Shown here in pieces: positions 24,571 through 31,490 of a DNA stretch of 57,555 bases; within the stretch, counting starts at the first letter, position 1, and each line of letters starts with the position of its first letter. A model generated the notes under the pieces. The model was not told where the DNA came from. It made no database searches and saw only the letters and a list, made by a program, of their open reading frames with translations. The translations under genes and the position numbers were made by a program. This DNA comes from Spirochaetota bacterium (GTDB lineage Bacteria > Spirochaetota > Spirochaetia > DTKZ01): contig JAOABU010000036.1 in assembly GCA_026418195.1 (NCBI GenBank), forward strand, positions 1 to 57,555. The letters run 5' to 3'.

Positions 24571-26979
24571 GTGTACCAGTCTTTCATTGGCTTAGAGATC
24601 CATATCCAACTACTTACCCAGTCAAAGGTGTTCTGTTCCTGTCCTGTACGGTTTGGGGATGAACCTAATACGAACGTGTGCCCCATCTGCATGGGGTACC
24701 CTGGAGTTCTTCCTTCCTTGAACCGAGAGGCGGTAAAGTACGGATACGTAGTCGCTCGAGCGTTGAACTGCCAGCTGAGTCCGGTTACGGTGTTCGAACG
24801 GAAGAACTATTTCTACCCCGACATGCCCAAGAACTATCAGATTTCCCAGTATACCCAACCCATTGGCCGGAACGGATACATGGATATCGAGTTTCGAAAG
24901 AAAAAGAAACGGGTGCGGATCCACGAAGTGCACCTAGAAGAGGATGCAGGAAAATCGATCCATGCGGGAGATCTTTCCCTTTTGGACTATAACCGGGCAG
25001 GCACCCCCCTATTAGAGATCGTCACGGAACCGGATTTAGAGATCGGGGAAGAGGCAGAAGTGCTCTTACAGAACTTTCGCCGGATGGTGCGTTATTTAGG
25101 GGTCTGTGACGGGAACATGGAAGAAGGTTCCCTCCGCTGTGATGCCAACGTATCGGTAAACCTGCGGGGCCAGGGGTTAGGGAAGAAGGTAGAAATCAAG
25201 AATTTGAACTCTTCCCGATTCGTTAGGCTGGCCCTGAACTATGAAATCGCTCGACAGGAAGAGATCCTGAGTCGTGGTGGAACGATCCTGCAGGAAACTA
25301 GGCTCTGGAACGAAAACCGGGACATCACAGAAGGAATGCGTACAAAGGAAAGTGCCCATGACTATCGGTATTTCCCGGAACCGGACCTACCGCCTTTTAA
25401 GGCAGATCATGCGTTTCTCGAGGAGGTGGAAGCTTGCCTTGTGGAACTGCCTGATCAACGGAAGAACCGATTCCTCACCCAGTACAACCTGTCGGAAACC
25501 CTAGCAGAGTTCCTTACGGCGGAAAAGAGCACCGCCGATTTTTTCGAACGGGCGGTGGAACTAGGGGCCGATCCTGTGGGTGCGGCTACCTGGCTCTCTT
25601 CCGATGTGCAAAAGCTATTGAACCGGCAGGGCCTTACACTACTCGAAAGCCCTCTTAACCCGGAACGATTTGCCGAACTCATGGTGTTACTACAGGAAGG
25701 GAAAATCCATGGGAAATTGGGGAAACAGGTACTGGAATTGGTGTTCCAGGAAGGGAAGTCCCCCAAAGAAATCCTGAAGGACCGAAACTGGGAACAGATC
25801 ACAGATCCCAGTGTGATTGGTCCTATTGTAGAAAAAATCCTTACGAAGAATCCCCACGTAGTGGAGACCATCCGCCGAGGCGACCTGAAGCCGTGGGGAT
25901 TTTTAGTCGGCCTGATCATGAAAGAGACGAGCGGGAGGGCCGATCCCCGGGTGGTACATGAGATTCTGAAGGAACGACTTCAGGTAAGCTTCATTTACCT
26001 TCTGACCTTTGGAGGAGCTATCTCTGGTAGGAGGGACCCGGATGGAATGGTGGTGCCGGGAGGCAGTGCGGCCATTCGGAAGATTCTCGAGCAGAATCCT
26101 TCCTGGAAGGATGTGGTCCGAGTGGAAGAGCTACCGGGGGAAGATATCTTGAGCGAAGAGATCACTCCGGCAGATTGGGCTACCCTTATCCTTCGAACGG
26201 CGACTCTTCTTCAGGAGGGAAACGCAAAGGGAATCGTGATCACCCATGGAACGGATACCCTTTCCTATACTGCCTCCCTATTCTACTGGCTATTTGGAAA
26301 TGCGGAGATTCCCATCGTGTTCACGGCCGCTTCCCTTCCCCCTGAAGAAGGTTCAGAGGCGGCTCAGAACATCCTGCAGGCCCTCCAACAGTCGGAAAAG
26401 GGTGAGAAGGGAGTATCCGTTGTATTTGGGGGTGAGACATACAAACCTGTAAATCTCCGCTTCCTCAGTTTAGACCCCATGCGGTTCTATAACTGGAACG
26501 CTGAACGGATTCGGAACGAATCTCCGTCGCCATTTCCCCTCTTTGGAGGAGGCCTGGGGGTGGAAACCTTACGGGAACGAATTGAAGGAATCGTACGAAA
26601 GATCTTTATCGTGAAAGTGTTCCCGGGACTCCAGGGGGATCAGTTGATTTGCCTCATTAATGCGGGAGTCCGTTTCTTCATTCTAGAGCTGTTTGATACT
26701 GGAACCGCCAATCTACGGGAAAGTCCTTTTTCCTTGAAAAAAGCGTTCGAGATAGGAAAAACACAGGGAGTACGGTTCTTCTGCACTTCCCAGCAGGAGG
26801 GCGTAGTGGATTTTTCGGGGTATGTAACAGCCCATGCGTTATGGAAGGAAGGAGCGATTCCCATGGGAGCGCTGGCAACAGAGAGCGTGTATACGAAACT
26901 AATCGCAGCGTTCCTCTATGCGGAATCGGAGGAAGAAATCCTACAGTGGATGGAGGAAAACGGTGCGAGTATTGGTTAA
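24571..26979 (+). CDS. gatB: GatB fused to a degenerate asparaginase/GatD-like domain
   Basis: 802 residues. Residues 1 to about 470 are a complete GatB: zinc motif FCSCP plus CPICMG, YPDMPKNYQISQYTQPIG, HLEEDAGKS, and the tail helix bundle ending KETSGRADPRVVHEILKE. From residue 472 the chain continues into an L-asparaginase fold like archaeal GatD. Of the asparaginase catalytic residues, the first Thr is lost (FGGAIS, A483 for the Thr of TGGT), the second Thr and Asp are kept (T561 and D562 in THGTDTL), and the Lys appears replaced (F631 in PVNLRFLS). The domain is therefore probably not an active amidohydrolase. GatB should work normally with GatC and GatA. The start is GTG at 24571; the end overlaps aspS by 17 bases. 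Confidence 0.92.
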   Translation: MYQSFIGLEIHIQLLTQSKVFCSCPVRFGDEPNTNVCPICMGYPGVLPSLNREAVKYGYVVARALNCQLSPVTVFERKNYFYPDMPKNYQISQYTQPIGRNGYMDIEFRKKKKRVRIHEVHLEEDAGKSIHAGDLSLLDYNRAGTPLLEIVTEPDLEIGEEAEVLLQNFRRMVRYLGVCDGNMEEGSLRCDANVSVNLRGQGLGKKVEIKNLNSSRFVRLALNYEIARQEEILSRGGTILQETRLWNENRDITEGMRTKESAHDYRYFPEPDLPPFKADHAFLEEVEACLVELPDQRKNRFLTQYNLSETLAEFLTAEKSTADFFERAVELGADPVGAATWLSSDVQKLLNRQGLTLLESPLNPERFAELMVLLQEGKIHGKLGKQVLELVFQEGKSPKEILKDRNWEQITDPSVIGPIVEKILTKNPHVVETIRRGDLKPWGFLVGLIMKETSGRADPRVVHEILKERLQVSFIYLLTFGGAISGRRDPDGMVVPGGSAAIRKILEQNPSWKDVVRVEELPGEDILSEEITPADWATLILRTATLLQEGNAKGIVITHGTDTLSYTASLFYWLFGNAEIPIVFTAASLPPEEGSEAAQNILQALQQSEKGEKGVSVVFGGETYKPVNLRFLSLDPMRFYNWNAERIRNESPSPFPLFGGGLGVETLRERIEGIVRKIFIVKVFPGLQGDQLICLINAGVRFFILELFDTGTANLRESPFSLKKAFEIGKTQGVRFFCTSQQEGVVDFSGYVTAHALWKEGAIPMGALATESVYTKLIAAFLYAESEEEILQWMEENGASIG

Positions 26980-28234
26980 AGAACTTGGTTCGTATATCGA
27001 ACGATCCGTAGAGGTGAAGGGTTGGGTACATCGGATTCGTGAACTGGGAGGCATCTCCTTTGTCCTCTTAAGGGATCGAACGGGAATGGTTCAGTTAGTC
27101 TATGAGGGTAAGGTAAGTTTTACCCAGGAGTCGGTGCTGTCCGTGCAGGGTACTGTCCGGAAAAATGAGAAAGCTCCTGGAGGTCTGGAAATCCATGTGG
27201 CTAACACGGAGATCCTTGCCCAAGCTCACCCGGATCTCCCGATTCCCGTGAACCAGGAGCCGGAGAAACTCTCTTTGGAAGCCCTCTTGGACCACCGCAT
27301 GATCTCCATTCGGATTCCAAAGATTCGAAGTATTTTCCGGGTGCAATCTACCATCCTGAAAGGTTTCGCCGAATACCTACGGCAGAATGGATTCACAGAG
27401 ATTAAAACCAGTAAACTGATCGGATCTGGCACGGAAGGGGGAACCGGGTTATTCTCGGTAGAGTACTTCGATACTCGGGTGTATCTGGCGCAATCTCCCC
27501 AATTTTACAAGCAAGCAATGATCTCCTCTGGGATGGAACGGGTGTTTGAGATCGGCCATGCATACCGGGCCGAGAAGCATGACACCCCTCGGCACTTGAA
27601 CGAGTACGTGTCCCTCGACGTGGAGATGGCCTTTATCGAAACGGAGCATGAACTGATGGATCTAGAACAGGGGATTCTGAACCATGTCTTCCGATTGGTA
27701 AAGGAGGAGAATGGAGAGGATCTCGAGGTGTATAAGGCAACAGTTCCTACAGCGGATGAAGTGAACCGGATCCCCCGGGTGACCTATGACGAAGCGAAGG
27801 AGATCATCTCGAAGGAAGGGGGACGGAAGGTCTTTGATATCAACCCCGAAGGGGAACGGATCCTCTGCGATTGGGCGGTGAAAGAACATGGGGTGGATGC
27901 AGTGTTCGTGTATGCCTTTCCCCGCAAGAAACGCCCCTTCTATGCGTATCCCGAGGGGCAGAAAACCCGTAGTTTCGACCTGCTATTCCGGGGGCTGGAA
28001 ATAACTACCGGTGGAAGACGGATTCATCAGTACGAAATGCTTCTGGATGCGTTACCCAAGTTTGGGTTGACTCCCGAAGGGTTGGGAGGATACGTGGATA
28101 TATTCAAGTACGGTTGTCCCCCCCATGGAGGATTCGCCATCGGATTGGAACGTCTCACCCAGAAGATCTTAGGCCTATCCAACGTGAAAGAAGCTTCCCT
28201 ATTCCCTCGAGACAGGAAACGTATCACTCCCTAG
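26963..28234 (+). CDS. aspS: Archaeal-type aspartyl-tRNA synthetase
   Basis: A 423-residue class II synthetase of the short archaeal/eukaryotic AspRS type: it lacks the GAD insertion of bacterial AspRS. It has an OB fold (WVHRIRELGGISFVLLRD), flipping loop GTEGGTGLF, motif 2 RAEKHDTPRHLNEY and motif 3 GLERLTQKI. Coupling to gatCAB suggests that it charges tRNA(Asn) with Asp for conversion to Asn-tRNA(Asn). The residue after GWV is His, which in archaeal enzymes tends to mark the discriminating form (from memory), so non-discrimination is not certain. I choose GTG at 26963 because GGAGG lies six bases upstream inside gatB. Confidence 0.88.
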   Translation: MRVLVKELGSYIERSVEVKGWVHRIRELGGISFVLLRDRTGMVQLVYEGKVSFTQESVLSVQGTVRKNEKAPGGLEIHVANTEILAQAHPDLPIPVNQEPEKLSLEALLDHRMISIRIPKIRSIFRVQSTILKGFAEYLRQNGFTEIKTSKLIGSGTEGGTGLFSVEYFDTRVYLAQSPQFYKQAMISSGMERVFEIGHAYRAEKHDTPRHLNEYVSLDVEMAFIETEHELMDLEQGILNHVFRLVKEENGEDLEVYKATVPTADEVNRIPRVTYDEAKEIISKEGGRKVFDINPEGERILCDWAVKEHGVDAVFVYAFPRKKRPFYAYPEGQKTRSFDLLFRGLEITTGGRRIHQYEMLLDALPKFGLTPEGLGGYVDIFKYGCPPHGGFAIGLERLTQKILGLSNVKEASLFPRDRKRITP

Positions 28235-28302
28235 AGATGTTCGACGGATCGAGGGGGAGTCAGGGGGAATAGAAGCAGCATACCGCCGAAAGGATAGCCA
28301 AC

Positions 28303-28937
28303 ATGCGTGTACAAGGCCCATTCGGCAAATTTTTCCTGGTAAGTTTCCTCCTTTTTAGCTGCGCTAGTGTGTCCTTTCGCAGGTACGAACCATACAGTCC
28401 CCTACAGGGGAACCCGGAAGACCAACGGAGGGTTATTAGAACCTATATAGAAACCCTTTCTCTTCCAGATCGAATCGCCCAGCGTTGTATTCTTTACATC
28501 CCCAAGGGGATGCCCATCGAGGAGGTAGAGTCTTTTATTCGGGATCGAAAGCCAGGGGGGGTGATCCTGTACCGATGGAACTATGATACCCTTTTCGACT
28601 TGGTTCGATTGACCGAGGCAATCCGAAGGGGATACCCTGCTGGGTATCCGGAGCCTTTCCTCTGTGCCGATCAGGAAGGAGGCCGGGTGCGGGCTTTTCC
28701 CTTCAAAGAGTTCGTTCAACTGCAGCCCTGTCCGGGAGGTATTCCCTGAAGGAGACGGTGTTGAGGTCTTTTCAAGCGGGGGTGGACATCCTACTCCTCT
28801 ACACCCGGTATCGAATAGAGGATATAGTATCCGTGGTAGAGGAGCTGATGCAGGAAGGCATACTCACAGAGGAGGAAATCGATACTGGAGTGGAACGTGT
28901 GCTCGCCTTAAAGCAAGCATACAGGCTCTTGCCCTGA
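28303..28937 (+). pseudogene. GH3 beta-N-acetylhexosaminidase-like lipoprotein, internally deleted
   Basis: The first frame (28303-28749) gives a lipoprotein signal (FLLFSCASVSF) and the N-terminal part of a GH3/NagZ-like enzyme up to CADQEGGRVRAF. It then runs into a stop. A second frame, ending at the TGA at 28935-28937, encodes the normal C-terminal end of the same family: LKETVLRSFQAGVDILLLY, then IDTGVERVLALKQAY. The middle of the barrel, including the KHFPGHG-type catalytic His loop, is absent. The junction is near 28740-28750. This is best read as a deletion of roughly 400-500 bases that also shifted the frame. The product cannot be active. AAGGA precedes the ATG. Confidence 0.8.
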
Positions 28938-28969: not shown

Positions 28970-29947
28970 ATGAGAAAACGAATTGGGTTTGATCTAGGGG
29001 CCACAAAGATGCTCTGTGGTATCTTGGACGAGAAGGGTACCATACTCCATCGATTAAAGCGGAAAAGTGTAGCTTCCCGGAAAGCTCAGGATGTCTACAC
29101 AGCCATTGTTCAGTGTATCGAAGAGTGTCTGGAGGAGGCTTCTGTTTCCTTGGAAGAGATAGAAGGGATTGGGATCGGTGCTCCGGGGGTGGTGAATTTC
29201 AAGAAAGGGATCGTTCTAGAGGCACCCAACTTAGGATTCCAGGACTACCCCTTACGAAAACAACTGGAGAAAACCTTTTCTCTTCCCGTGGTGGTGGACA
29301 ATGATGTAAACCTGGCTACCTTTGCGGAGGCACGAAAAGGGGTAGCAAAAGGGATGAAGCATGTAATCGGTCTCTTCCCCGGAACAGGATTGGGGTCTGG
29401 AATCGTATTGAATGGGGAACTGTACCGAGGGGCCTTCGGAGGTGCGGGGGAAGTGGGGCATACTATTGTGGAGCCGAACGGGAACCTCTGTGGGTGCGGT
29501 GGATACGGGCACTTGGAAGCCCTCGTGTCCCGAAGTGCTATTGCTAAGGATGTGGTGGCGTTGGCTGCAACGGGAAAGGCCCCTACTGTGCTTGATAAGG
29601 CGGGGACAGACTATAAGAAGATCAAAAGCAGTGTACTGAAGAAGGCGGTAGATGCGGGAGAGAAGGAAGTGGAGAAGGCTATTTTACGGTCCGCTTGGTA
29701 CTTGGGGATCGGCATGGCGAACCTGGTGCACATCCTCAATCCCGAGGGCATTGTTCTGGGAGGAGGACTAGTGGAGAGGTTTGGAAGTTTCTATGTGGAA
29801 GCTGCTGAAGCTTCTATGCGAAAACATGCATTACCTTCATTGGTAAAATCGGTACGGGTTCTGATTTCCACATTCTTGGAGGATGCGGTAGTGGTAGGTG
29901 CAGCTCTCCTTCTAGCAGAGGAGTTGAAGGGAAAGGAAAATGGCTAG
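28970..29947 (+). CDS. ROK-family sugar kinase
   Basis: A 325-residue ROK kinase. Signatures are FDLGATKMLCGILDE (phosphate loop), GIGAPGVVNF, VDNDVNLAT with the catalytic Asp, and EVGHTIVEPNG followed by LCGCGGYGHLEALVS. In most ROK kinases the last zinc-site segment is C-x-CG-x2-GC; here the final Cys is His (GYGHLE). Glucose and N-acetylglucosamine are the usual substrates. The dead GH3 hexosaminidase upstream suggests GlcNAc, while overlap with ppx and the nearby ppk suggests glucose, possibly with polyphosphate as donor. The sequence alone does not decide. Its 3' end overlaps the ppx start by eight bases. Confidence 0.88.
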   Translation: MRKRIGFDLGATKMLCGILDEKGTILHRLKRKSVASRKAQDVYTAIVQCIEECLEEASVSLEEIEGIGIGAPGVVNFKKGIVLEAPNLGFQDYPLRKQLEKTFSLPVVVDNDVNLATFAEARKGVAKGMKHVIGLFPGTGLGSGIVLNGELYRGAFGGAGEVGHTIVEPNGNLCGCGGYGHLEALVSRSAIAKDVVALAATGKAPTVLDKAGTDYKKIKSSVLKKAVDAGEKEVEKAILRSAWYLGIGMANLVHILNPEGIVLGGGLVERFGSFYVEAAEASMRKHALPSLVKSVRVLISTFLEDAVVVGAALLLAEELKGKENG

Positions 29948-31490
29948 TACAAAAGTAAGCAATCCTCGACTCGTGGGAGTAATCGATATCGGTTCTACGG
30001 CCATCCGGTTAGTGATTGCAGAAATCGATCCTTCAGGGGAATGGAGAAGACTAGACCGTGCTATTCGGCCTGTTCCTTTGGGTAAGGATGTGTTCCTCAA
30101 TGGTTCCATCAGCCGGGAAACCTTTCAGCTTTGCCTCCGGGTTCTTTCAGGATTCCTTGAACTGTTGCAGGGTTGGCAGATTTCCCAGGAAAACGTACGG
30201 GTCATTGCTACGGCAGCGATCCGGGAAGCTAAGAACCGGGACATGTTCATCGATCGGGTTCGGATGCGTACAGGGTTCAAGGTGGATGTGATCGAGGGGA
30301 TCGAAGAGAATCACCTTACCTATCTAGCTGTCCAGCATGCGATTCGGGACTTGAAAAAGGACATCGCTCGCACGAACACTCTCATCATCGAAGTCGGGGG
30401 GGGTACCACGGAACTGATGCTTCTTCAGCGTGGAAAGATGGTATCGGCCCATACGTTACGGATCGGAACGGTACGGATCCAGCAGCACCTTTCTCCCAAC
30501 TCGGAAAGCTACAGTCATGTGGAAGGATACATCCGGGAACATATCCGGAATACTCAGGAACTCCTAGAGGTGGAATTCGATCTATCCCGGATCAAATACT
30601 TCGTTACCATTGGGGGAGATGTTCGACTAGCGGCAGAGAGGGTAGGGAAAAAAGTACATGAACACTACTCCATCATCAAGAAGAACGCGTTCATCGAGTT
30701 TGTGGACCGGTTGAAACATTGTACTGTAGACGAATGTGTCCGGCTCCTGCAGGTGACCTACAACGAAGCGGAAGGGTTGGTGGCAGCCCTCCTGGTAGTA
30801 AAGTACTTTCTCAATGCCACGGCAGCAGAGTTCCTCATTGTTCCCGATGTGAGCATCCGGGAAGGGGTCCTGTTGAGTTTTGCCTTGGATACTTCCCGGG
30901 CGGTGGGAGAGCAGTTCTACTCGCAGGTAGTGGCTTCTGCCATCAGTTTAGGTAGAAAGTACCATTTCGATGAAGACCATAGCCTCCATGTAGCACGTCT
31001 TTCTTTGCAGATCTTTGACCAGCTGAAAGAGGAGCACGGGTTGGATAGCCATGCCCGGCTTCTCTTAGAGTCGGCCGCAATTCTCCATGACATCGGGAAT
31101 TTCATCAATACAGCCAAACACCACAAGCATGGGCAGTACATTATTGCCAATTCCGAGATGTTCGGGTATTCAAGGGGAGATTTACGGATCATTTCCAATA
31201 TTGTGAGGTACCATCGAAAAGCCCTTCCTGTCCCTTCCCACCCTCGATTCATGATGCTAGGAAGGGAGGAACGGATGCTAGTACTGAAGCTCGCCTCCAT
31301 TCTTCGTTTGGCCGATGGATTGGACAGGGGCCATTCCCAACGAATCCGAAAAGTACGTTTAGAGAAACGGGACGAGGAGATCCTCCTACAGGTGGAGTAT
31401 AATGGGAACCCACAGGTGGAACGGGTAGGGTTACGGCTAAAAAGCGAAATGTTCGAAGAAGTGTTTGGGTACACAGTTCGAATGCTGTGA
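29940..31490 (+). CDS. ppx: Ppx/GppA phosphatase with HD domain
   Basis: A 516-residue protein. Residues 1 to about 300 are the Ppx/GppA actin-like fold: VGVIDIGSTAIRLVIAEID at the N-terminus, ATAAIREAKN, and IEVGGGTTELMLL. Residues about 320-500 form an HD domain with ILHDIGNFINTAKHHKHG and IVRYHRK. Long Ppx/GppA proteins with this tail hydrolyse inorganic polyphosphate from chain ends and/or the pppGpp 5' phosphate. The next gene is polyphosphate kinase, so this is mainly the polyphosphate-degrading partner. It overlaps the ROK kinase stop (ATGGCTAG). Confidence 0.88.
   Translation: MASTKVSNPRLVGVIDIGSTAIRLVIAEIDPSGEWRRLDRAIRPVPLGKDVFLNGSISRETFQLCLRVLSGFLELLQGWQISQENVRVIATAAIREAKNRDMFIDRVRMRTGFKVDVIEGIEENHLTYLAVQHAIRDLKKDIARTNTLIIEVGGGTTELMLLQRGKMVSAHTLRIGTVRIQQHLSPNSESYSHVEGYIREHIRNTQELLEVEFDLSRIKYFVTIGGDVRLAAERVGKKVHEHYSIIKKNAFIEFVDRLKHCTVDECVRLLQVTYNEAEGLVAALLVVKYFLNATAAEFLIVPDVSIREGVLLSFALDTSRAVGEQFYSQVVASAISLGRKYHFDEDHSLHVARLSLQIFDQLKEEHGLDSHARLLLESAAILHDIGNFINTAKHHKHGQYIIANSEMFGYSRGDLRIISNIVRYHRKALPVPSHPRFMMLGREERMLVLKLASILRLADGLDRGHSQRIRKVRLEKRDEEILLQVEYNGNPQVERVGLRLKSEMFEEVFGYTVRML

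Follow-up and report, generated by a model that had tools for sequence, protein, structure and literature searches.

The gene at positions 28303-28937 (+ strand) of the window is probably an ordinary but very young pseudogene, the product of one internal deletion within a gene for a NagZ-like GH3 lipoprotein. The window is the whole stretch of DNA analysed (57,555 nucleotides), and it makes up all of contig C113 in the draft genome of a member of the Spirochaetota (G000, 158 contigs, 98.63% complete). This genome was compared with three others of its genus, G001, the sister genome G002, and G003; completeness is 79% for G002, 79% for G003, and 83% for G004, a genome from outside the genus. What is seen is a lesion in the assembly, which would by extension be present in the living population. 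The combination found, an intact orthologue in a relative, a lesion in the window copy, and no further decay, is that of a recent pseudogene.

As the first-pass annotation had proposed, two ends of one GH3/NagZ-like gene are present, colinear on the same strand and in differing frames, with the catalytic middle absent. The N-terminal remnant is an ORF of 148 codons (28303-28749, + strand) that contains a lipoprotein-like signal and continues to about residue 147 in G002 numbering. With the G002 orthologue as query, the same open frame was matched from 28291, and 28291-28725 corresponds to G002 residues 3-147 with 66% identity (E 1.5e-62). The C-terminal remnant (28724-28937, + strand) lies in a differing frame that has a GTG start at 28758 and is open to its own stop. 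It covers GH3 residues of about 318-388, with 28719-28931 matching G002 residues 318-388 at 83% identity (E 8.4e-29).

The C-terminal fragment was recognized by PF00933 with 28.6 bits in the genome search (cut-off 27), and as a 59-residue ORF it scored 25.5 bits, under the cut-off. The match includes only profile positions 257-315 of 316, leaving most of the barrel unmatched. The N-terminal fragment alone matched no Pfam family and is recognizable only through its relatives. According to the first-pass annotation, the signal peptide and ribosome-binding site survive. Inspected by eye, MRVQGPFGKFFLVSFLLFSC resembles a lipoprotein signal region, and AAAGGA stands upstream of the ATG. Its lipobox, LFSC, is by eye less canonical than the ISSC of G002 or the VVGC of G003.

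The join was placed at 28723/28724 (28720-28727, + strand) by eye on a DNA alignment and by a script. In G002 coordinates the deletion spans 517 bp, removing approximately residues 147-318; counted simply between lipobox cysteine and stop codon, the window copy is 520 bp shorter than the G002 copy. Because 517 is 1 mod 3, the second half of the gene is out of frame, and the N-terminal frame reaches a stop at 28747-28749, eight codons past the join. The segments IGDRSFGGDP, KHFPGHGSTRTDSH, and VMSDGLEMG are gone from the window copy. We take the latter two to be active-site parts of GH3, namely the KHFPGHG...DSH loop and the segment holding the catalytic Asp nucleophile. Both the catalytic His/Asp loop (KH-PGHG...DSH) and the nucleophile segment (VMSDGLEM) are absent in the window copy and present in G002, and the short product predicted here cannot function as a GH3 enzyme.

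There is no direct repeat at the ends of the deletion. The longest common word of the two 50-bp end stretches in G002 is 5 bp; it is out of register, and a word of this length was reached in 850 of 1000 shuffles. Repeat-mediated deletion or collapse was rejected on this ground, and a simple repeat collapse is thus not expected.

The comparison with close relatives suggested by the first-pass annotation found the G002 copy uninterrupted at the same place. This orthologue, on contig C80, has 390 residues and, like the window copy, is flanked by aspS and the ROK gene. In G001, both halves of the gene are present on two contigs, C292, which stops at residue 211, and C298, which starts at residue 225, with about 40 bp around residues 212-224 absent. 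The contig of G003 breaks off at residue 233 of the gene. No stop or frameshift interrupts the G001 and G003 pieces before the contigs end.

The intact G002 orthologue aligns with the NagZ-type GH3 structures 6k5j and 3tev over residues 78-384 and 72-365, respectively, and keeps the KHFPGHG...DSH loop, whereas the window copy is without residues of about 147-318. By eye, its signal is of the lipoprotein type; YbbD (3bmx) and LpqI (6gfv) are likewise lipoproteins according to their PDB titles. With 204.9 bits against NCBIfam NF003740, it falls just short of the NagZ equivalog cut-off of 207, and we call it NagZ-like. An enzyme of this kind is predicted to trim amino sugars from cell-wall fragments, releasing N-acetylglucosamine from muropeptides. 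Our literature search found nothing on NagZ pseudogenes in spirochaetes.

A search of the G000 assembly with the full-length G002 orthologue found this locus and two paralogues only, with 32-33% identity; no other part of the assembly yielded the missing middle. The paralogues, with open frames of 565 codons (C27) and 443 codons (C76), each have the KH-PG motif. In another genome, G013, a further GH3 match (C1:452054-452861) consists of two overlapping pieces in differing frames, with open frames of 621 and 163, and is possibly another frameshifted GH3 gene.

The deletion could also belong to the assembly, or to a minority of cells, and not to the population. In this reading the gene is intact in the population and was shortened by the assembler, a chimeric read, or gap-filling, which we regard as a possible but doubtful explanation. 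The genome is a draft of 158 contigs, an assembly error would likewise appear as a clean young lesion, and no lesion beyond the deletion was seen in either remnant, as an artefact would predict. Furthermore, the G001 and G003 contigs break in the same gene, no more than about 20 codons apart, near the conserved KHFPG motif. However, these breaks fall inside the deleted stretch and not at its ends, the join offers no repeat for a de Bruijn assembler to collapse, and no separate piece of the assembly was found to carry the missing middle, although small contigs may lie outside the bin.

The number of breaks expected in 517 bp is about 0.05 for G001 (320 contigs, 3.6 Mb) and about 0.1 for G003 (390 contigs, 2.1 Mb), for a pattern that was spotted post hoc. 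The breaks hint at a region that is hard to assemble or variable. They may be caused by conserved GH3 letters that are common to other genes in the metagenome. Since the contigs of two other genomes in the genus end inside the deleted stretch, intact and broken forms could also coexist within populations of the genus, as though a surface enzyme were repeatedly switched off, but we give this idea very little credence.

The low dN/dS values of the remnants are in keeping with a recent loss, as had been suspected from the surviving signals. Relative to G001, dN/dS is 0.117 for the N-terminal part and 0.050 for the C-terminal part; the values for the same parts between G001 and G002 are 0.088 and 0.101. 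Lineage-specific residue changes number eight in the window copy and six in G001 (two-sided binomial p 0.79). In the N-terminal part, seven changes are specific to the window and three to G001, a non-significant excess (p 0.34), and in the C-terminal part there are one and three. A rough Poisson upper bound, which assumes half of dS per branch and a fixed counting factor, places the deletion within the last 4-7% of the branch that began at the divergence from G001. Because the remnants still look selected, the loss either occurred within at most this fraction of the branch or is an assembly artefact.

We also considered a join between sequences from two species. The dS to G001 is 0.80 left of the join and 1.05 right of it, and the neighboring genes have values of 0.97 (AspS), 1.06 (ROK), and 0.79 (GppA). 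With dS alike on either side, both sides are probably from one genome and a join between species is unlikely.

Low dN/dS and open reading frames in both remnants, together with the GTG at 28758, might instead indicate that both are working proteins, a short lipoprotein and a small C-terminal peptide in a non-catalytic role. This is scarcely credible. A young lesion would leave the low dN/dS of the intact gene as an inheritance, and roughly half the barrel domain has gone. The gene is intact in G002, and given the G001 and G003 pieces, in which no stop or frameshift occurs before the contigs end, no second case of this split at the locus is known.

If the gene is a young pseudogene, as we prefer to read it, its ancestor, which G002 keeps in intact form, would have encoded a surface-anchored, NagZ-like GH3 beta-N-acetylhexosaminidase, its function being assigned by homology. 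One illegitimate deletion of about 517 bp would then have removed the catalytic middle and put the remainder out of frame. The loss is probably tolerated, with the other two GH3 genes of the genome, both with open frames, presumably compensating for it. The downstream ROK kinase is unaffected and is part of a separate ROK-GppA-PPK block. Pseudogenes formed by single internal deletions occur in bacterial genomes, and the present case is like them in its frame-shifting deletion without a repeat, its remnants in place, and its paralogues. There is no evident difference from such pseudogenes, except that the window copy, if real, is unusually young. The locus should carry a pseudogene label, and it has little meaning beyond annotation. 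A real loss would add a fresh example of a cell-wall enzyme disappearing from a genome that keeps paralogues.

The first-pass annotation had also read the GH3 gene and the ROK kinase downstream as a decayed pair for amino-sugar recycling, which our results do not support. Upstream of the GH3 gene is aspS (26918-28234, + strand), of the aspartate--tRNA(Asn) ligase type and over the cut-offs of NF003483 and TIGR00458; this gene is upstream of the GH3 gene in the window, G001, G002, G003, and L066, a locus outside the genus. Downstream are an intact gene for a ROK-family sugar kinase (28970-29947, + strand) and one for a Ppx/GppA phosphatase (29940-31490, + strand). The ROK protein is best matched, among the 13 NCBIfam models listed, by the ROK glucokinase model TIGR00744, with 207 bits and thus under the cut-off of 260.35. 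Its dN/dS of 0.031 indicates no decay.

A functional recycling pair that is now decaying would agree with the adjacency of GH3 and ROK on the same strand in G002 and the window, and with the C-terminal GH3 half of G001, which abuts the same ROK gene. We nevertheless find it improbable, given the absence of decay in the ROK protein and the arrangement of both genes outside the genus. The six closest ROK relatives there (L047-L052, 44-49% identity, two from one genus) all have Ppx/GppA directly beside them, and none of the six has a GH3 or AspS match at E 1e-10 within flanks of about 1.5 kb. Of the GH3 orthologues beyond the genus, the one in G004 (50% identity) follows gatB and the one in L066 (47% identity) follows aspS; no ROK match turned up in the stretches examined near either. 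The arrangement in this genus looks like two adjoining blocks, GatCAB-AspS-GH3 and ROK-GppA-PPK. No ROK match of comparable strength was found in G003 (79% complete), where the best has 26% identity, or in G004 (83% complete), where the best has an E of 7.3e-5. In G021, a GH3 gene lies less than 2 kb from a ROK-type protein with a 431-codon frame, an N-terminal extension, and 32% identity, which is probably a ROK regulator. The ROK-Ppx/GppA gene pair (window 28970-31490) is itself conserved, occurring in all six of the class-level relatives examined, and we know of no role for it.

Other recycling enzymes likewise argue against the pair, as G000 gave neither an AnmK match nor a confident one for MurQ. 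No AnmK match was found in any of the four genomes of the genus, G000 included. The MurQ model was over its cut-off in one of the four, G001; G000 has one weak match under the cut-off, and no match was found in G002 or G003 (both 79% complete). The G001 gene (C123:13985-14851) is a full MurQ-type gene with 398 bits (cut-off 302). The NagA model had matches in all four genomes, all under the cut-off, with strong scores of 193-205 bits in three and a weak match in G002. The literature search found nothing on a NagZ lipoprotein with a ROK kinase. The neighboring GH3 gene is no ground for annotating the ROK kinase as an amino-sugar recycling enzyme.

Farther upstream, the window contains a GatB with a C-terminal asparaginase/GatD-like domain (24571-26979, 802 aa; PF02934, PF02637, PF00710). 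A search of 198 genomes of the class found 24 loci in which a single open frame holds both parts; L111, which would be the 25th strong match, was unreadable. The literature search found no GatB-asparaginase fusion, in spirochaetes or elsewhere, the only result being a paper on the Bdellovibrio AspRS (PMC4206432), as far as the accessible part of that paper goes. The GatB of G003, in the same genus, is unfused, with its own stop (L059 on C344, 2019-3461, minus strand, 481-codon frame), and G003 has only a distant asparaginase match of 29% identity, elsewhere in the genome. This fusion is more unusual than the GH3 pseudogene and more deserving of attention. All 24 fused loci keep GTDTL, and all read GGA where the five stand-alone asparaginases that were fetched read GGT. 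The Thr of GGT, which we take to be the first active-site threonine of asparaginases, is thus missing, and the fused domain is a conserved ammonia-side domain on a bacterial transamidosome subunit, probably inactive or re-purposed.
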